From Bowmanella denitrificans (GTDB lineage Bacteria; Pseudomonadota; Gammaproteobacteria; Enterobacterales; Alteromonadaceae), in assembly GCF_002887595.1 (NCBI RefSeq), contig NZ_PEBU01000001.1:558001-622000 (forward strand): a DNA stretch of 64,000 nt, in the 5' to 3' direction. Position numbers and translations under genes: made by a program. Below, one piece after another: positions 1,907 through 10,200 of the stretch. How positions within the stretch are numbered: the first letter of the stretch is position 1; the number at the start of each line of letters is the position of its first letter. The notes below the pieces were generated by a model that worked only from the letters and a program-made list of their open reading frames with translations, was not told where the DNA came from and ran no database searches.

Positions 1907-3985
1907 CTATCTGAATGCATATTGCAGTTGCACATAAGCCTGACGTCCACCATATGGCAGTCCTTCAGGGTACTGAATCAGATTTGGCACAATGTCATAC
2001 TCCCGGTCCGTTAGGTTGTTGATACTGGCGGTGAACGTCAGACCATTTTGGTCAAACAATTCGTTAATGGTCAGGCTGTAATCCAGGGTAGTGTGTGCAT
2101 CAAATTCACGAGTAACAGGTGTACGCAATTGCACATCCCAGCCCTCTTGTGTGCCTGTGTGGCGAAGCATTACCTGATGGGTCGCCATGCTATCAGAACG
2201 CCAGGTCACCCCCAGGTTACCCAGCCAATCCACCGCTCCCAGAAGTTTGCCGTCGGTTTCATCCAGATGGTCCTTGGCATGCACATAAGACAAGTTGGCA
2301 AACCAATGCCAGTTTCGATTGATATCCTGTTGCCATTCCAGTTCCACACCACGACTGTCAATATCTCCTCGATTGCGCCAAACAGGGGATTGACCTGGGC
2401 GCAGATAGTATTCAATCAGGTCAGTAACCTTGGTGAAAAACAAGGTGGAGCGAAAACTAAAACCCGGCGCCCGATAGATATATGCCAGCTCGCTGGATGA
2501 CAAAGACTCTTCGCTAAGTTTGGTGGACTGTGACGCCACCACAGACAGACTGCCCGGGTAGCTTTCTTTCAGAGTAGGCGGCCGGAACGCTTCGGCATAC
2601 TGCGCCTTGAAAATATGACTGTCGCTGTGTCGCCACACCGCCGCTATGCGGGGTGAAGCTTGATTACCCCAATCGTCATAATTGTCATAGCGTGCGCCCC
2701 ATGTGATCTCCAGCTTGTCTGTGGCTTGCCATTGGTCCTGCAACGTAATACTGGTCAGGCGTCGTTCTACTCCCGGCATCACCAGCACACGCTCTGGCGG
2801 GCTTTCTACAATGGGCTGCCCCAGCGCATATAGTTGGTGGAAGGCATTATCCACCTTATTCAGGCTATGACTTATTTGTGCATACCATTGATGATTGGCT
2901 GAAAACTGCCAATGCAAGTCAAGTGCGGCTCGCAAGGTGGAGTCTTCACTGCCTTCACGAACGAAATTATCCCGCAGCACTGGCCTGCCACCAGGCCCAT
3001 TAATACCGGCTGGAATAGGCAAGTAAGTCGCTTCATTCAGGCGGGTCTGCATACTGGCCAGCGTCAAACCCAATTCCATGTCTGTTGCCAGGGTCCAGTT
3101 TTTCCTTAACTGAATCCCCTGCACTGTCTCCAGTCTGGGTTCCAGTGCCTGGGGCATGGCTGCGTTTTTTCCATACCACCCGCCACGTTCAACCTCTGCA
3201 TACTGGAGGTTTAGTTGATAGCCCTGATATTCGCCCTGGGCCAGCAGCAATCGACCTTTTTCGCGATCATAGATTTCACCAGGTGAGTAACCATGCCCTC
3301 CACGAGCAAAATTATCCGGATTGGTCAGTCTGCCAACATCGTTCTGATCCCAGGCTGAAAAATTGAATGAGGTTGACAGGCCGTTTTGCCATTGGTGATT
3401 CAGTGACAGATCGATCTGACCGTAATCCTGACTACCTGCTCTTAGTAGCAGGCTATTTTGTTGCCGGGTAACCACATTCACCACCCCGGCAAAGGCAAAT
3501 TCCCCATGCAGTGCCGAACCAGGGCCTCGCACCACTTCAATACGTTCCACCTGACTAACTGGCAAGCGCATCAGCCAGTCGGCCGAGGCATCCACCGGGC
3601 GGTTGACCGGTACGCCATCGACCAGAATTTTCAGGTTGCTGCCATTTAGCGTTGCCCCTATGCCCCTGACCACGCTAACCATGTCGCCGCTGTTGTTGAC
3701 CATAGTGTAAAAACCGGCAATCTGATCCAGGGCAGCGCCAACATTGTGCACACCACGTTCGGTAAGATCATCACCATGCAATACACTGACCATACCAGGT
3801 ACATAATCAGCGTTCATTTTGCTATGGGTAGCCAGGGCGGTTTCTTCTTCAAGCATGGCCATCAGCTCGGCCATTTCCTGCATTTCCTCCAGGTTTTCGG
3901 CACTGACTGGCCGCCAAAACGCAAAAGTGGTTAAAAACGTGATTACCACCAAGGGGCTACTAATCGCATGATTTTTTGTTGTCAT
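1907..3985 (-). CDS. TonB-dependent outer-membrane receptor
   Basis: A 692-residue protein. A signal peptide covers about residues 1-29 (cleavage near PVSA). A plug domain runs from about 55 to 175, with the typical stretches DDLTERGVHNVGAAL, VVRGIGATL, KILVDGVPVNRP and VERIEVVRGPGSALHG. A beta-barrel follows and ends in a C-terminal aromatic signature (YVQLQYAFR). Receptors of this type import siderophores, vitamins, carbohydrates or other ligands; the sequence does not tell which. An acidic, Met-rich stretch sits between the signal peptide and the plug. Neighbours are a GGDEF regulator upstream (87-base gap without a clear terminator) and YfiR-like and kinase genes downstream, an arrangement that suggests a sensory rather than purely nutritional role. 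No Fur-like box was seen before it. Confidence 0.92.
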   Translation of the reverse strand: MTTKNHAISSPLVVITFLTTFAFWRPVSAENLEEMQEMAELMAMLEEETALATHSKMNADYVPGMVSVLHGDDLTERGVHNVGAALDQIAGFYTMVNNSGDMVSVVRGIGATLNGSNLKILVDGVPVNRPVDASADWLMRLPVSQVERIEVVRGPGSALHGEFAFAGVVNVVTRQQNSLLLRAGSQDYGQIDLSLNHQWQNGLSTSFNFSAWDQNDVGRLTNPDNFARGGHGYSPGEIYDREKGRLLLAQGEYQGYQLNLQYAEVERGGWYGKNAAMPQALEPRLETVQGIQLRKNWTLATDMELGLTLASMQTRLNEATYLPIPAGINGPGGRPVLRDNFVREGSEDSTLRAALDLHWQFSANHQWYAQISHSLNKVDNAFHQLYALGQPIVESPPERVLVMPGVERRLTSITLQDQWQATDKLEITWGARYDNYDDWGNQASPRIAAVWRHSDSHIFKAQYAEAFRPPTLKESYPGSLSVVASQSTKLSEESLSSSELAYIYRAPGFSFRSTLFFTKVTDLIEYYLRPGQSPVWRNRGDIDSRGVELEWQQDINRNWHWFANLSYVHAKDHLDETDGKLLGAVDWLGNLGVTWRSDSMATHQVMLRHTGTQEGWDVQLRTPVTREFDAHTTLDYSLTINELFDQNGLTFTASINNLTDREYDIVPNLIQYPEGLPYGGRQAYVQLQYAFR

Positions 3986-4071: not shown

Positions 4072-5004
4072 TTAATCCTGCCAGGTTCTGTGCTCCATGC
4101 TGTAACAATTTCGACCATGGCGTTTCGCCCGGTAGAGCTGCTCGTCGGCCTGTTGCAACAATGCCAACTCAGCCATATTTTGCTCTGGAGAACATGTAGC
4201 CCCGCCCAGGCTGATACTGACGAAGCAACCTGAAGAGTCCGGATGAGGCAGCGCTTCGGCAAGAACCAGCCGACGTAAACGCTCGGCCACCTTGGCAGCC
4301 CCCTCGCGATCCGTGTCAGGCAGTAACACCACAAACTCCTCACCTCCGAAACGGGCTACCGCATCGGCCGGGTCCCGCAGCCCCATAGACAGAACTCTGG
4401 CAATGGCTTGCAAACACGCATCTCCCTGCGTATGGCCGAATCTGTCGTTGTAAGCTTTGAAGTGGTCCACATCTATCATTAGCAATGACAGTTGCGATTT
4501 GTTGCGTATTGCTCTTAACCATTCTTGTCGGAACACCTGATTAAAGTGGCGACGATTCATCAGAGACGTCAATTCGTCGGTGCAGGCCAGTTCCGCCAAC
4601 TTATCGCCTTTTTGTTTCAGTGCCAGATGATTACGCAACCGGGCCTTGAGGACCGGAATGGAAAAGGGTTTGTTGATATAGTCTATGGCTCCCAAACTCA
4701 GGCCTTTCTCCATATCTACCTCATTGTCCCGGGCGCTGAGAAACACAACGGGAATGTCTGCGGTGGACGGGTCCTGTTTTAGCCGACGGCACACTTCATA
4801 GCCGTCCATCCCAGGCATCATAATGTCCAGTAAGATAAGATCGGGGCGGCGCTGATGCACCAATGCCAGGGCCTCCTCGCCGGACAATGCTACCATCAGC
4901 TCAATGTCTTCCTCTATCAGGTGCGCAACCAGAATATCCAGGTTGGACGGAATATCGTCGACGGCCAGTACGGTAGGTTGCTTGAATTCCATTTTAATAC
5001 TCAT
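4072..5004 (-). CDS. Response regulator with GGDEF output (PleD-like diguanylate cyclase)
   Basis: A 310-residue protein with two domains. A receiver spans about residues 9-125 (acidic DD pair near the N-terminus, phospho-acceptor in LILLDIMMPGMDG, conserved Lys in NKPFS). A GGDEF domain spans about 135-300, with the active-site motif GGEEF. It should make c-di-GMP when phosphorylated. The inhibitory RxxD I-site is not in register: where R is expected the sequence reads RDPAD, with the Arg shifted by one. The start chosen is ATG 5004, preceded by a GAGAGA Shine-Dalgarno; a TTG one codon earlier is less likely. A sigma54 promoter is visible 52-67 bases upstream (5056-5071). It diverges from the sigma54 regulator gene, probably its direct activator. 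Confidence 0.93.
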   Translation of the reverse strand: MSIKMEFKQPTVLAVDDIPSNLDILVAHLIEEDIELMVALSGEEALALVHQRRPDLILLDIMMPGMDGYEVCRRLKQDPSTADIPVVFLSARDNEVDMEKGLSLGAIDYINKPFSIPVLKARLRNHLALKQKGDKLAELACTDELTSLMNRRHFNQVFRQEWLRAIRNKSQLSLLMIDVDHFKAYNDRFGHTQGDACLQAIARVLSMGLRDPADAVARFGGEEFVVLLPDTDREGAAKVAERLRRLVLAEALPHPDSSGCFVSISLGGATCSPEQNMAELALLQQADEQLYRAKRHGRNCYSMEHRTWQD

Positions 5005-5055
5005 CAATTCTCTCAGACGCGGTGCAAATAAATTCGGTTAAACAAGGCATCTCAA

Positions 5056-5071
5056 TGCAAAACCACCGCCA
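5056..5071 (-). promoter_or_regulatory. Sigma54 promoter for the GGDEF regulator gene
   Basis: On the minus strand this reads TGGCGGTGGTTTTGCA. It has GG and GC exactly 10 bases apart, with a full TGGC -24 block and TTGCA -12 block (consensus TGGCACG-N4-TTGCW). The predicted start is near 5045, about 40 bases before the ATG at 5004. A cluster of repeated sites (5121-5172) lies at the distance usual for enhancer-binding proteins. Confidence 0.75.
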
Positions 5072-5120
5072 ACTTGAAATAATCTTAAATATCAACGCAT
5101 TAATCCAACTTCACATTCAT

Positions 5121-5172
5121 CCTATAGCGAATATGCTTATAGAACACTTCCTTTGCTTATAGATTCTTATAG
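5121..5172. promoter_or_regulatory. Repeated CTTATAG sites, likely upstream activator sequences
   Basis: CTTATAG occurs at 5136-5142, 5156-5162 and 5166-5172, with a variant CCTATAG at 5121-5127. Starts are 10, 20 and 15 bases apart, so they are close to helical phase. Read on the minus strand, the proximal pair is CTATAAGAATCTATAAG, lying about 110-127 bases upstream of the predicted sigma54 start near 5045. A nearly identical pair lies at 6750-6767. This is the expected place for binding by the adjacent sigma54 regulator. Confidence 0.6.
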
Positions 5173-5205
5173 ACTAACAAGCACCGTTATTGTCGCGAGT
5201 GCTTT

Positions 5206-6738
5206 ATGTCATCTATCCCTCTGGTGTTGTTGGTAGACGATAAACCGGACAATCTGGATCTATTGGTCAACTACCTGGCCGAGTGTGGATTAGAACTTAA
5301 GGTGGCTACCGATGGCGAACAAGGCCTGGAATTAGCTGCTGAGTATGTGCCGGACCTGATCCTACTGGATGTTATGATGCCAGGTCTTAACGGCTATGAA
5401 GTCTGTGACCGTCTCAGAAACATGCCAACAACCCGTCATTGTCCGGTTATTTTTATGAGTGCCCTGACCGATACTGATAGCAAAGTCAGGGGATTTGATG
5501 CCGGCGCAGTGGATTTTATCAGTAAGCCTTTCCAACGCCCCGAAGTATTAGCGCGCATTCAGGCCCATCTGACCATTAGCCAGCAAAAGCAGCAGTTACG
5601 TTTGAAAAATCAACAACTGGTTCAATTAAATAAGGAACTGCAGGAGCAGGTAAACAAGCGACAACAAGTAGAGCACGCATTGCAACTGGCGGATGAACGT
5701 TTGTCAGCGCTCAGCCGTCAGGAAGCAGAACATTGGGGCATTGATGCCTTCGTCGGCGACAGTCGTGTTGTCGCCGAATTGCTTGAGGAAGTGCGCAACC
5801 TGCAACAGGCACCCGACACAAGCGTTCTGGTGTTAGGTGAGAGTGGTACGGGTAAGGAGCTGGTTTCCAGAGCCATCCATTTTGGCAGCAAACGCAAACT
5901 CAGCGCCTTTGTCGCGGTTAACTGTTCCGCCATTCCCGCCGAGCTGGCCGATGCAGAATTTTTCGGTCATGTAAAAGGCGCTTATACCGGGGCAACCAGT
6001 GACAGAAGTGGTTACTTTGTTCAGGCAGATGGTGGCACGCTGTTTCTGGATGAAATAGGCGATATGCCAATACATTTGCAGGCCAAATTATTAAGGGTAC
6101 TGGAAGACGGTATTGTAACGCCGGTAGGCGGACGCCAGAGCCGACGGGTGAATGTGCGTATTGTGGCGGCAACAAACGCCAATATCAGTGACAAGATCCG
6201 CAAACAGGCATTTCGTCAGGACCTGTATTTTCGTCTGGCAGGTTATCAGATTCAGTTGCCACCACTGCGGGAACGATTATCAGACATTCCGCTGTTGGTT
6301 GACCACTTCCTGACGTCACTGGGACGTCAAATGGGCAAAGACTACCCCACCTTAACGCCACAGGCGTTACTGGCACTGCAACAGTACCACTACCCGGGCA
6401 ATGTCAGAGAGCTAAAGAATCTGATTGAATATGCCCTGATTGCCAGTCGCGGCAGGCCTATTGGCGCACACCACCTGCGCTTCGTTGACTTGTCTGCCGA
6501 GCAAAGTGCTGTGGACCTTCCTTACCATGAACCTGCTAAGCCGCACAGCAACACTGAATCTGCTGAAGCCTTACTGATGAACTATGCCAACAATACAGGC
6601 CGTATTGACAATAACACTGCTCAGGCACTGCTGCGCGTTGACCATGGCCGTGCTTCCTATCTGCTTAAAAAACTCTACAAAGACGGTAAACTACAAAAGC
6701 AAGGACAGCGGCGCTGGGCGTTTTATATTCCTGCCTGA
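5206..6738 (+). CDS. Sigma54-dependent response regulator (REC-AAA+) with an atypical C-terminal domain
   Basis: A 510-residue protein. The receiver spans about 5-122 (DD pair, [17 protein letters not shown]), followed by a coiled-coil linker at about 125-170. The AAA+ sigma54 activation domain spans about 180-420, with Walker A GESGTGKE, the sigma54 contact loop GAYTGA (GAFTGA variant), Walker [12 protein letters not shown] and an R-finger region [22 protein letters not shown]. Such proteins hydrolyse ATP to open sigma54 holoenzyme promoters. The last ~75 residues are not a Fis-type helix: [22 protein letters not shown], then [19 protein letters not shown] and a basic/aromatic end, look like a winged-helix DNA-binding domain. 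Flanking CTATAAG pairs and two sigma54 promoters make it the probable regulator of both neighbours. No strong Shine-Dalgarno precedes ATG 5206. Confidence 0.92.
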
Positions 6739-6749
6739 CGGCCCACATC

Positions 6750-6767
6750 CTATAAGAACTCTATAAG
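6750..6767. promoter_or_regulatory. CTATAAG pair downstream of the sigma54 regulator
   Basis: CTATAAGAACTCTATAAG starts 12 bases after the regulator's stop codon. It differs from the minus-strand pair at 5156-5172 only by one extra C in the spacer. It lies about 76-93 bases upstream of the predicted start of a second sigma54 promoter (6817-6832) and points the same way toward it, as expected of a second activator site. Confidence 0.6.
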
Positions 6768-6816
6768 CGAAACGACTTGGAAGAAAATCTATCTTATTGA
6801 AAAATAAAAAATAGAT

Positions 6817-6832
6817 GGGCGTTGTTTTTGCT
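6817..6832 (+). promoter_or_regulatory. Second sigma54 promoter, reading toward a small gene or RNA
   Basis: GGGCGTTGTTTTTGCT has the GG-N10-GC spacing and a good TTGCT -12 block; only the first base of the -24 TGGC is off. The predicted start is near 6843. No long gene lies downstream on this strand before mesX, only the 43-codon frame at 6911-7042. Confidence 0.6.
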
Positions 6833-6851
6833 CCTGCGATATTCAGATCCT

Positions 6852-6877
6852 GCCCGGTGCACATGGCCGTACCGGGC
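6852..6877 (+). other. Hairpin in the leader behind the second sigma54 promoter
   Basis: A perfect 7-bp inverted repeat, GCCCGGT (6852-6858) and ACCGGGC (6871-6877), with a 12-base loop. It would form at the 5' end of the transcript from the sigma54 promoter at 6817-6832. It could stabilise the RNA or shape translation of the 43-codon frame; it has no U-run and so is not a terminator. Confidence 0.45.
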
Positions 6878-6910
6878 TATGGCGGTTGTTTATCTCTGAG
6901 AGGAATCCCT

Positions 6911-7042
6911 GTGCTGAATAATGACAGCCATCCTAACCAACTGACCGTCGCTGGTTTAATGGTGCTCCAGCTAAGTGGCTGTATCTTGTATAAATACAAA
7001 TTCAGCGCCGTTGTTACGAAGTTTGCTCTGCCAGGTGAATAA
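6911..7042 (+). CDS. Candidate 43-residue small protein
   Basis: A GTG-started frame of 43 residues, preceded by a strong Shine-Dalgarno GAGAGGA (6898-6904) at a 6-base spacing. The peptide has a polar N-terminus (NNDSHPNQ), a hydrophobic core (LTVAGLMVLQLSGCILY) and a mixed C-terminal tail, so it may be membrane-associated. It lies about 68 bases behind the predicted start of the sigma54 promoter and runs tail to tail with the MetR-type gene (29-base overlap). No family is recognised. The transcript could instead be a regulatory RNA. Support comes from the promoter and ribosome site, not homology. Confidence 0.4.
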   Translation: MLNNDSHPNQLTVAGLMVLQLSGCILYKYKFSAVVTKFALPGE

Positions 7043-7898
7043 ATTCACTGACATAAGGGATCTGTTCATCGCCCTTGCGGATCCCCAAGTAGATGCTTTT
7101 TTGAATCCCCGTTTCGCCAATCCGCAAACTGGCGATGGGCAGGGTCGATTCAAATTCCTGAACCAACCATCCTGGTAAGGCGCAAATGCCGCGGCCACTG
7201 GCCACCATTTGCAGCATGATTTCGGTTGTTTCAATCACTTTGTGCTGGCGCACGGTGCATTGGGCCGGGTTGAGAAACTGACTAAAAATATCCAGGCGCT
7301 GCGGTTCCACCGGATAGGTAAACAGTACCTCATTACTAAGTTGTTCGGGTTTGACCCATTCCAGCTCAGCCAATGCATGCGATTTGGCCACCACCAGGCG
7401 ATGCTCGTAACCAAACACCGGGAAATACTCCAGCTCCGGTTTAAATAGCGGGTCGGGGGTCACCAGCATATCGATTTCGTAATCAAACAGCGCCCGTAAG
7501 CCGCCAAACTGGAATTCCTGGCGGACATCAATATCGACGTCAGGCCATTGCTCCAGAAAAGGTGCCACGACCTTGAGCAGCCACTGATAGCATGGGTGAC
7601 ATTCCATGCCAATACGTAGCGAGCCCATCTCGCCTTTGGCAATCTGTTTAAGTAATAATTCGGTATGCTCAAATTGTGGCAGCAACCTGCGCGATAAGGC
7701 ATGAATGCGCTTGCCTGCTGCGGTCAATCGCAGGTTACGACCTTGCTTTTCCCAGATGGCGGTACCAATCTGTCCTTCCAGCTTCTTAATGCTGTGGCTT
7801 AGCGCCGACTGGGTTAAATTCAGCGCCTCGGCCGCCTGGGTCAGCGTACCCTGCTCCTCAATGGCGGACAGGATCGCCAGATGAATACGTTCCAGCAT
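7014..7898 (-). CDS. metR: LysR-type regulator, MetR-like
   Basis: A 294-residue LysR protein. An N-terminal winged HTH spans about 1-65 (AAEALNLTQSALSHSIKKLE), followed by an effector domain. The GMECHPCYQWL stretch is characteristic of MetR, which senses homocysteine and activates methionine synthesis genes. It diverges from mesX-mesD, and two TGA-N7-TCA sites lie just upstream, which supports the assignment and suggests control of both directions. Length is normal for the family (about 300). Confidence 0.85.
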   Translation of the reverse strand: MLERIHLAILSAIEEQGTLTQAAEALNLTQSALSHSIKKLEGQIGTAIWEKQGRNLRLTAAGKRIHALSRRLLPQFEHTELLLKQIAKGEMGSLRIGMECHPCYQWLLKVVAPFLEQWPDVDIDVRQEFQFGGLRALFDYEIDMLVTPDPLFKPELEYFPVFGYEHRLVVAKSHALAELEWVKPEQLSNEVLFTYPVEPQRLDIFSQFLNPAQCTVRQHKVIETTEIMLQMVASGRGICALPGWLVQEFESTLPIASLRIGETGIQKSIYLGIRKGDEQIPYVSEFIHLAEQTS

Positions 7899-7921
7899 GA
7901 AATCGTTCCAAACCTTAAATC

Positions 7922-7957
7922 ATGAGTATCACTCATGAATCAATGAGAATAAATCAT
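7922..7957. promoter_or_regulatory. Two MetR-type operator boxes
   Basis: ATGAGTATCACTCAT (7922-7936) and ATGAGAATAAATCAT (7943-7957) both fit the MetR pattern TGAA-N5-TTCA at its outer TGA-N7-TCA positions. The first is palindromic at all five bases of each arm. They are 21 bases apart, two helical turns on the same face. They lie 24-59 bases before the metR start and about 200 bases before mesX. The remaining bases up to 8159 form a long leader with the repeat AATCAAGT twice; I saw no riboswitch fold there. Confidence 0.65.
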
Positions 7958-8159
7958 TTTTATTCATAAAATGGTCCAAGTATAAATCACCCTATGCTCT
8001 CAACTCTATACAAGATCACCGCGGTTTCTTGATGATGCGATTGGAATCAAGTCAATCAAGTGGTGACAACGACTGACTGCAATAATGTGAAGAAGAAGTT
8101 GGAAAGTCAGCAAAGAGCAGGGACTCAATTCAGGTTTTATCTCAAAAATTGGATGCCAG

Positions 8160-9143
8160 ATGACAATGAATAATGACTTTACTTTCACAATTAAACGTAT
8201 CTGTCTCGATGAGAATTATCACCCATCAGACAATACACGCATTACTACCAACTTTGCGAATTTGGCCAGAGGTGAAAGCCGTCAGCAGAATTTGCGCAAC
8301 GCCTTAAAAATGATAGACAACAGTTTTAATTCCAGAGCGCATTGGGACAACCCTAACGGCGATCGTTACTCTATTGAACTGGAAATTATTTCCGTAGATA
8401 TAGATATTGAAGGTAGCGGTCAGACTTTCCCATCCATTGAAGTATTAAAGACCAATATTGTTGATCATAAAACCAACGAGCACATTGAAGGGATTGTCGG
8501 GAATAATTTTTCTTCCTATGTGCGTGATTACGACTTTAGCGTATTACTGCTTAATCACAATAAGGACCAAAGCGTATTCAGTATTCCGGATAATTTTGGT
8601 GAGCTGCATGGAAAGCTATTCAAGTACTTTGTCAACTCAAGTGCTTACAAAGAGAATTTTAACAAGCCACCGGTTATTTGTCTGAGCGTGTCGGATAACA
8701 AGACTTATCACCGTGCCGAAAATCAGCATCCGGTATTAGGCTTTGAGTATCAGCCCAATGAATCGTCTCTGACTGAACAATATTTCAGAAAAATGGGGCT
8801 GCAGGTTCGCTATTTTATGCCACCCAATAGTGTTGCGCCGTTAGCCTTCTATTTCTTTGGTGATCTACTTAATGATTACACCAACCTGGAACTTATCAGT
8901 ACTATCAGTACGATGGAAACATTTCAGAAGATTTACCGGCCAGAAATATATAACGCCAATGCGGTTGCCGGTAAGTGCTACAAACCCAATCTGAAAAACT
9001 CAGACCATTCGTTAACTCAAATTGTGTATGACCGGGAAGAGCGCAGCAAGCTGGCGATTAAGCAGGGTAAATTTGCTGAAGAACACTTTATCAAACCTTA
9101 CCAAAATATACTTGAGCAGTGGTCAGCTAATTTCTCTCTTTAA
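8160..9143 (+). CDS. mesX: DUF1852 protein, MesX: partner of folate-independent methionine synthase
   Basis: A 327-residue soluble protein. Its N-terminus (FTFTIKRICLDENYHPSDNTRITTNFANLARGES, read in pieces) is the signature start of DUF1852. In Acinetobacter the DUF1852 protein MesX is required by the core methionine synthase MesD, which makes methionine without methyl-folate; the biochemical role of MesX is not well defined. It is followed 28 bases later by mesD, the known pairing. ATG 8160 and ATG 8166 are both possible starts; neither has a clear ribosome site. MetR boxes upstream fit its role. Confidence 0.88.
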   Translation: MTMNNDFTFTIKRICLDENYHPSDNTRITTNFANLARGESRQQNLRNALKMIDNSFNSRAHWDNPNGDRYSIELEIISVDIDIEGSGQTFPSIEVLKTNIVDHKTNEHIEGIVGNNFSSYVRDYDFSVLLLNHNKDQSVFSIPDNFGELHGKLFKYFVNSSAYKENFNKPPVICLSVSDNKTYHRAENQHPVLGFEYQPNESSLTEQYFRKMGLQVRYFMPPNSVAPLAFYFFGDLLNDYTNLELISTISTMETFQKIYRPEIYNANAVAGKCYKPNLKNSDHSLTQIVYDREERSKLAIKQGKFAEEHFIKPYQNILEQWSANFSL

Positions 9144-9171
9144 TTAATCAGAAGATACAGCAGCAGCGATT

Positions 9172-10200
9172 ATGAAAACTTTACTACCGACTTCAACCGC
9201 GGGCAGCTTGCCTAAACCTTCCTGGCTGGCACAACCTGAAACACTTTGGTCCCCCTGGAAATTACAGGGGGAGGAATTAATTGACGGTAAACAGGATGCC
9301 TTGCGTGTGTCATTGCAGGAACAGCAACAGGCTGGCATTGATATCGTCAGTGACGGCGAGCAGACGCGCCAGCATTTCGTTACGACCTTTATTGAACACC
9401 TTAGCGGCGTGGACTTCGAGAATCGCAAAACCGTTAAGATTCGTGATCGCTATGATGCCAGCGTTCCGACTGTAGTTGGAGCGGTTTCCCGGCAACAGCC
9501 GGTTTTTGTCGAAGATGCCAGGTTTTTGCGCCAGCAAACCAGACAACCGATAAAATGGGCGCTGCCAGGCCCGATGACCATGATCGACACCCTGTATGAT
9601 GATCATTATAAAAGTCGTGAAAAGCTCGCCTGGGAATTTGCCAAAATCCTCAACCAGGAAGCCAGGGAATTAGAGGCAGCGGGAGTGGATATTATCCAGT
9701 TTGATGAGCCGGCATTTAATGTATTTTTTGATGAGGTCAATGACTGGGGTATTGCCACGCTGGAAAGAGCCATAGAGGGCCTTAAATGCGAGACGGCGGT
9801 ACATATTTGCTACGGCTATGGCATTAAAGCCAATACCGACTGGAAAAAGACCCTGGGCTCTGAGTGGCGACAATACGAAGAGGCCTTTCCCAAACTGCAA
9901 AAATCTAAAATCGATATCATCTCACTGGAATGTCATAACTCCCGCGTACCAATTGATTTGCTAGAACTGATTCGCGGTAAAAAAGTCATGGTCGGTGCCA
10001 TTGATGTGGCAACCAATACCATTGAAACAGCAGAGGACGTTGCCGCCACCCTGCGAAAAGCCCTGCAGTTTGTTGACGCCGACAAACTCTACCCTTGCAC
10101 CAATTGTGGTATGGCACCGCTGTCCCGCCAGGTAGCGAGAGGCAAGCTGCAAGCGCTCAGTGCCGGGGCTGAGATTGTCCGCAAAGAACTGCAAGCCTAA
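9172..10200 (+). CDS. mesD: Core methionine synthase MesD (MetE C-terminal-like)
   Basis: A 342-residue protein matching only the catalytic (C-terminal) barrel of cobalamin-independent methionine synthase; the N-terminal folate-binding half of MetE (about 755 residues) is absent. Zinc ligands of the family can be placed: His in AVHICYG, Glu in SLECHNS with an adjacent Cys, and a Cys in YPCTNCGMAPL. It would methylate homocysteine using a donor other than methyl-tetrahydrofolate. It is co-transcribed with mesX, the DUF1852 partner. A MetR-type regulator diverges upstream. Confidence 0.88.
   Translation: MKTLLPTSTAGSLPKPSWLAQPETLWSPWKLQGEELIDGKQDALRVSLQEQQQAGIDIVSDGEQTRQHFVTTFIEHLSGVDFENRKTVKIRDRYDASVPTVVGAVSRQQPVFVEDARFLRQQTRQPIKWALPGPMTMIDTLYDDHYKSREKLAWEFAKILNQEARELEAAGVDIIQFDEPAFNVFFDEVNDWGIATLERAIEGLKCETAVHICYGYGIKANTDWKKTLGSEWRQYEEAFPKLQKSKIDIISLECHNSRVPIDLLELIRGKKVMVGAIDVATNTIETAEDVAATLRKALQFVDADKLYPCTNCGMAPLSRQVARGKLQALSAGAEIVRKELQA

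Follow-up and report, generated by a model that had tools for sequence, protein, structure and literature searches.

A rare sigma54 activator cassette with directional CTATAAG repeats in Bowmanella denitrificans and its relatives, proposed as a self-contained circuit

In the LuxO–Qrr system of vibrio quorum sensing, a sigma54 response regulator acts on promoters within the circuit to which it belongs, and in YfiBNR signalling through cyclic di-GMP (c-di-GMP) YfiR is encoded near a diguanylate cyclase. Activators of this kind are recognisable by the Walker A sequence GESGTGKE and by GAFTGA, the sigma54-activator loop motif. Response-regulator sigma54 activators are described with a C-terminal HTH_8 domain by Francke et al. 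2011 (PMC3162934). The locus analysed herein lies in a window of 64,000 nt (the whole stretch of DNA under study) from Bowmanella denitrificans, contig NZ_PEBU01000001.1, positions 558,001 to 622,000 of the forward strand, and centres on a 510 aa regulator encoded at 5206–6738 (+). Like the NtrC-type (type Ia) activators of the same source (PMC3162934), this protein, in which a linker follows the receiver, combines a receiver with a sigma54 AAA+ domain containing GESGTGKE and GAFTGA or GAYTGA, and putative upstream sites precede −24/−12 promoters. It differs from them in ending with a winged-helix-like domain (approx. residues 450–510, from Pfam, an alignment of eight orthologues, AF2 and Foldseek), and in its association with mainly head-to-tail arrays of CTATAAG.

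Two such arrays flank the regulator gene. On the minus strand, the pair CTATAAGAATCTATAAG (5172–5156) is placed with its copies starting at −127 and −117 relative to the predicted start of a sigma54-type promoter, TTGGCGGTGGTTTTGCA (5072–5056, −), which leads into a divergent operon encoding a GGDEF protein, a TonB-dependent receptor, a YfiR-like protein and a kinase. On the plus strand, the pair CTATAAGAACTCTATAAG (6750–6767) starts at −93 and −82 of a second such site, TGGGCGTTGTTTTTGCT (6816–6832, +). Both pairs, both GG-N10-GC promoters, the distances between them and the identity of the intervening gene as a sigma54 response regulator had been proposed in an earlier reading of the letters alone (hereafter the original prediction), and all were recovered here. 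That prediction overlooked a third exact CTATAAG in the minus array (5142–5136, start −97), a degenerate CTATAGG with one mismatch (5121–5127, −) that is a putative fourth repeat, the lack of a detectable Fis-type domain in the regulator and a lipoprotein-like stub behind the plus-strand promoter. Across the 5.48 Mb of the genome, CTATAAGN{1,8}CTATAAG is found in just these two places, and the reverse-read pattern once; a CTATAAG pair with a spacer of 0–8 nt did not arise in any of 100 dinucleotide shuffles of the window. We estimate the probability that these elements constitute a cassette-borne, self-contained two-component sigma54 circuit at roughly 0.8.

Orthologues of the regulator were sought with its protein sequence (P0001; threshold of E ≤ 1e-90) in family, order and class genome sets, and appear to be rare: 5/395 family genomes and 4/394 order genomes (the query genome included in both) possess one. 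The class search returned 2/369 genomes, one being the query and the other a partial relative (G873), which was excluded as it aligns over residues 7–417 only (45 % identity, E 3.2e-105) and leaves the C-terminal domain uncovered. At least 80 further loci at 35–45 % identity from a scan of named relatives were set aside as generic response-regulator activators. This leaves seven relatives (G001, G168, G032, G075, G690, G673 and G555; loci L116–L122), whose regulators are 58–75 % identical to that of the window. The original prediction had staked itself on conservation of the pairs wherever the regulator is kept, and the refuting outcome that it named for them did not arise. An exact CTATAAG is found upstream of the regulator in 7/7 relatives and a same-strand pair with a spacer of 2–16 nt in six, the exception being L120, where the copies are 26 bp apart. 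De novo, CTATAAG is the most enriched 7-mer in the upstream intergenic DNA of the seven relatives (18 copies against 0.55 expected, in 7/7 regions), and CTATAAGC is the most enriched 8-mer, again with the window excluded (12 against 0.15, in 6/7 regions). Over all eight upstream regions 19 copies of CTATAAG face the divergent operon and 2 the opposite way, and in each region shuffles matched the observed count in no more than 2/1000 cases. Alignment of the upstream region with that of the nearest relative, G001, displays identity at 21/21 repeat positions and 14/17 promoter positions, compared with 67/163 elsewhere. The corresponding values for the downstream region are 10/14, 8/17 and 61/141, although here the spacing differs and the alignment slips, making it unusable as a footprint.

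Promoters were scored as the best sigma54-like site facing the gene, using the general sigma54 consensus and weights of our own. Across the eight genomes, 16 regions combine repeats with such a site, which is a strict GG-N10-GC in 14/16. In 8/8 loci a site lies between the repeats and the divergent operon and faces the latter (strict in 6/8), and for the minus-strand promoter of the window 0/500 shuffles of the region score as highly. The placing of the array recurs: repeats start at −127/−117/−97 in the window, −128/−118/−98 in L116 and −126/−116/−96 in L122, such that the spacing is kept in three genomes although the intervening DNA is unconserved. In the other five divergent regions, the starts of exact copies range from −102 to −176. 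Beyond the opposite end of the regulator gene, repeats together with a strict site precede a lipoprotein gene in L116, L120 and L122 and the stub in the window, with counterparts starting at −93/−84 in L116, at −130 in L120, and at −127 in L122, where a one-mismatch copy follows at −105. Downstream of the regulator, L117, L118 and L119 contain neither an exact repeat nor a site (best scores of 0.61–0.72, reached by 181–403/500 shuffles). A sigma54 gene is present in 8/8 genomes, as Sigma54_DBD is above its cut-off in each. In so far as the original prediction had the regulator acting on the repeats and the sigma54 promoters, comparison thus supports the association of the three, whereas binding and activation are steps that we infer.

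Specificity was assessed with two controls. The first comprises 25 paralogous sigma54-activator loci of the genus (all matches to the regulator except the two orthologues; 93.5 kb), in which 4 single copies of CTATAAG and 0 pairs were found, compared with 32 copies and pairs in 7/8 of the orthologous loci. The second comprises 28 chance pairs (L159–L186) taken from the 85 pair-bearing genomes that have no match to the regulator. Here the best same-direction site within 25–170 bp scores 0.48–0.81, with none exceeding 0.81, and a site of 0.84 at L169 faces the opposite direction. The same-direction sites of the target pairs score 0.86–0.92 in L116, L118, L119, L122 and L155, and 0.77 in L117, whilst in L121 and L150 the sites (0.86 and 0.89) lie behind the pair instead of ahead of it.

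A number of observations weigh against the proposed circuit, or against its generality. The 16 scored regions were chosen because they contain repeats. Two of the divergent promoters are not strict, with GT (L120) or GA (L121) in place of GC, and shuffles equal the scores of L117, L120 and L121 in 10/500, 24/500 and 12/500 cases, respectively. The plus-strand promoter of the window is weak when taken alone, being equalled by 13/500 shuffles and by 1/28 control loci; stronger sites occupy the corresponding place in L116, L120 and L122. In G673, strict sites precede Peptidase_S74-domain genes (L121, reverse-complemented, 8008–8351) and an M60 peptidase gene (L150, 5800–6118), and at both the repeats point away from them. 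A pair in G555 (L156), one of three pair matches outside the main loci, has nothing above 0.72 ahead and was regarded as a chance pair. Exact repeats are absent ahead of the YHYH genes that are unlinked to the cassette in G673, G168, G032 and G003, which rules such genes out as obligatory targets. That of G032 (L153, 5483–5594) nevertheless has a site, CTGGCATATTTTATGCT, scoring 0.86 approx. 110 bp before its start, with no exact CTATAAG, and may answer to another activator. Finally, CTATAAGN{2,16}CTATAAG occurs in 90/390 family genomes, partly as simple repeats, and 85 of these genomes have no match to the regulator, so that the pair is ruled out as a stand-alone genome-wide marker.

At the protein level, the receiver (PF00072), Sigma54_activat (PF00158; E 5.6e-63 in the window) and AAA_lid_14 domains are detected in 8/8 orthologues. 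GESGTGKE is invariant in the alignment, GAYTGA or GAFTGA is present in all eight, and the receiver residues D11, D12, D55, S85 and K107 do not vary. The Fis-type HTH_8 domain was not detected in any of the eight C-termini: when these were scanned alone with a limit of E 1, 18 Pfam families matched and HTH_8 was not among them. The matches are all weak and include FtsK_gamma (4 members), MarR (4) and HTH_27 (3, best E 0.0035). Within the last approx. 60 residues, a RASYLLKKL helix and the wing residues G-x-RRW-xx-Y are invariant in 8/8. Modelled alone by AF2, the C-terminal 66 residues of the window's regulator form three helices and a short wing, with a pLDDT of 83.5 for the best model and 62–64 for the other four. 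The first rows of a Foldseek search with this model include MarR, BpsR, FtsK gamma, CadC and MecI (all E >0.001), and a sequence-profile search of the PDB yielded four weak matches, the best at E 0.8. Searched with a profile of the domain, each of the eight genomes gives one match, to which G001 adds a second; three congeners have no match. The additional protein of G001 (E 9.1e-10) carries SLFN_AlbA_2 (PF04326) and RecG-like HATPase_c_4 (PF13749) domains, and hhalign pairs the two C-termini with a probability of 97 % (32 % identity over 62 columns). On the strength of these profile and hhalign matches, the DNA-binding end of the regulator most likely shares ancestry with the winged helix of SLFN_AlbA_2/RecG-like proteins. 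The G001 protein has no receiver and no sigma54 domain; the DNA-binding end alone is held in common. The regulator seems to have given up the DNA-gripping domain usual in its family and to carry another in its place.

The mechanism that these elements make most likely is the following. The TonB-dependent receptor, the YfiR/HmsC-like protein and the histidine kinase would sense a signal at the cell surface, upon which the kinase would transfer phosphate to the regulator's receiver, perhaps also to that of the GGDEF protein. The C-terminal winged helix of the phosphorylated regulator would bind repeats of CTATAAGC that are mainly head-to-tail and, for the most part, set one or two turns of the helix from each other, and the bound protein would contact sigma54 polymerase at a −24/−12 promoter some 80–175 bp downstream. 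Its targets would be of two kinds: the GGDEF–receptor–YfiR–kinase operon, through which the circuit would feed back positively on itself, and genes for surface proteins close to that of the regulator, of which this genome appears to keep no more than a 43-codon stub. The GGDEF protein would connect the circuit to c-di-GMP.

The repeats might instead be owned by another DNA-binding protein, for example an intergenic repressor, with the regulator using other sites or binding nowhere in particular. Their binder is, after all, deduced from sequence, and enhancer-binding proteins without a DNA-binding domain exist (PMC3162934). This we regard as improbable given that the repeats accompany the orthologue in 8/8 loci and pairs are absent from all 25 paralogous ones, that the 28 pairs in genomes lacking the regulator have no good sigma54 site ahead, that the C-terminal helix is as invariant as the operator, and that gene lists examined by eye display no other DNA-binding gene common to the loci. 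Less probable still is that CTTATAG/CTATAAG merely represents sigma70 −10 boxes of the regulator and its neighbours. In the window, the repeats at 5121–5172 are located 34–85 bp upstream of the regulator start codon and contain the −10-like hexamers TATAGA and TATAAG, and a sigma70-like site is predicted at 5110–5137, but that scan found 3 sites where 2.5 are expected. Against such boxes, the enriched word extends to CTATAAGC, and the repeats occur at fixed distances from −24/−12 sites, downstream targets included. The repeats may nonetheless double as the regulator's own promoter; their position ahead of its start codon may permit autoregulation by occlusion, and through them the regulator may tune its own expression.

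A separate question is what the downstream promoter of the window now serves. The original prediction had the regulator driving both a GGDEF gene and a small transcript. The link to the promoter of the GGDEF operon is borne out by comparison, 8/8 divergent loci having a site, whereas the small transcript, an idea reminiscent of LuxO–Qrr, finds no support in the form proposed. In L116, L120 and L122 the gene behind the downstream promoter is lipoprotein-like, with PKD and YHYH domains; the match of the regulator to LuxO is generic (279 bits against a cut-off of 800), and a search of window 4900–7200 against Rfam, with E up to 1 allowed, gave no match. The window possesses instead a stub of 43 codons (6911–7042, +) with a GTG start, a hydrophobic stretch resembling a lipoprotein signal peptide and a lipobox-like LSGC, which then ends within the antisense of a LysR gene. 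It resembles the N-termini of the relatives in layout, with no significant alignment. The window becomes homologous to the LysR loci of G002 and G004 at approximately the LysR stop (window 7010 and 7027), which is roughly where the stub frame enters the LysR antisense. With the lipoprotein of L122 as query, 14 matches in this genome cover residues 20–162, the PKD part only, and the YHYH part has none. It is more likely that a deletion removed the lipoprotein gene, leaving the operator, the promoter and a signal peptide, and that the stub is a probable remnant of a YHYH lipoprotein. That the promoter still yields a functional small RNA or small lipoprotein is unlikely, albeit less so than the two alternatives above. 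Operator and promoter have persisted after the presumed deletion, and by eye a leader hairpin (GCCCGGT-N12-ACCGGGC) is visible at 6852–6877; terminator-like sites in 4980–7100 are near chance (4 found against 2.3 expected). A functional product is nevertheless disfavoured by the full YHYH lipoprotein gene at this place in three relatives, by the entry of the frame into LysR antisense at about the point where that homology sets in, by the want of an Rfam match, and by a signal peptide with no Lys or Arg at its start.

Beyond the main loci, G032 and G075 share a further candidate. Past the kinase in G032 (L118, 216–933), and on a different contig in G075 (L155, 895–1561), a gene for a 147 aa protein with a weak receiver domain is accompanied by a strict sigma54-type promoter (TTGGCAAGAACTGTGCA and TTGGCAAGGACTGTGCA, respectively) and by three exact copies of CTATAAG, of which L118 has one inverted. 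This lone receiver-domain gene is likely to be an extra target. These two regions and L150, which stem from the pair search or from the locus itself, complete the 16 scored. Amongst the lipoprotein loci, the YHYH fragment of G075 begins at a contig end, and in L120, L122, L151, L152 and L154 inspection by eye shows a YHYH/PKD lipoprotein gene followed by one for a secreted-looking protein of 167–209 aa, for which no Pfam match was found where examined (L120 and L122). By eye, L150 also contains a broken second copy of the kinase.

The unit that recurs is a rare cassette of kinase, YfiR-like protein, TonB receptor, usually a GGDEF protein, and regulator. In the window, the divergent operon is led by a response regulator with a GGDEF domain (4072–5004, −; Pfam), a putative diguanylate cyclase in which GGEEF is present and the preceding RxxD inhibition site was not seen by eye. 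There follow the TonB-dependent receptor (1907–3985, −; Pfam), the YfiR/HmsC-like protein (DUF4154; 1288–1866, −), tentatively assigned on a PF13689 match of 21.0 bits against a cut-off of 24.9 (E 3.7e-4), and a sensor histidine kinase with HisKA and HATPase_c domains (1–1295, −; Pfam), which continues past the window edge. The proximity of a YfiR-like gene to a putative diguanylate cyclase recalls YfiBNR, yet the cyclase here is of receiver–GGDEF type and has TonB-receptor, kinase and sigma54-activator genes as its neighbours. The receptor is present in 8/8 loci, at 39–73 % identity across the seven relatives, as is the YfiR-like homologue, its copy in L120 being interrupted by a contig end. 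The kinase is found in 7/7 loci where the contig extends that far, though L119 has no more than a fragment; in L120 the contig stops earlier. The first gene of the divergent operon has a GGDEF domain in 6/8 loci and a receiver only in L121; L117 has no such gene, its operon beginning with the TonB receptor.

With regard to distribution, the regulator is present in 2/5 genomes of the genus, at different sites. Here the cassette sits between MotA-like and LysR genes that are adjacent in G004, and in G001, together with one 203 aa gene, it lies between SIMPL-like and GNAT genes that are adjacent in G002 and G003 (names by eye). That a single genus has it at two sites speaks for the cassette being gained or lost as a block. 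No match to the C-terminal domain was returned from 72,556 plasmid records. Next to the cassette, at 7014–10200, the LysR regulator is divergent from a MesX-family gene (Pfam), followed by a methionine-synthase-like gene (by eye), and this gene order is the same in G002 and G004.

Among the papers listed, by title and the start of abstracts and in a literature with subscription journals mostly outside coverage, neither the operator, the cassette nor a winged-helix response-regulator sigma54 activator was found, which is weak evidence of absence. More broadly, and with the odds about even, response-regulator sigma54 activators bearing an AlbA_2-type winged helix in place of Fis could read a directional operator code, making the cassette a portable surface-sensing module that amplifies itself and acquires varied targets in different hosts (YHYH lipoprotein, S74 fibre, M60 peptidase or receiver protein) wherever the same array comes to stand ahead of a sigma54 promoter. 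Because these orthologues combine a substituted winged helix with an operator legible in sequence and with recurring promoter positions, they would offer a clean test of the share that the DNA-binding module has in enhancer function, and of regulon recruitment through short direct repeats. As the uncharacterised receptor–YfiR–kinase–GGDEF cassette is tied to concrete surface targets, the signal to which it may respond becomes searchable.

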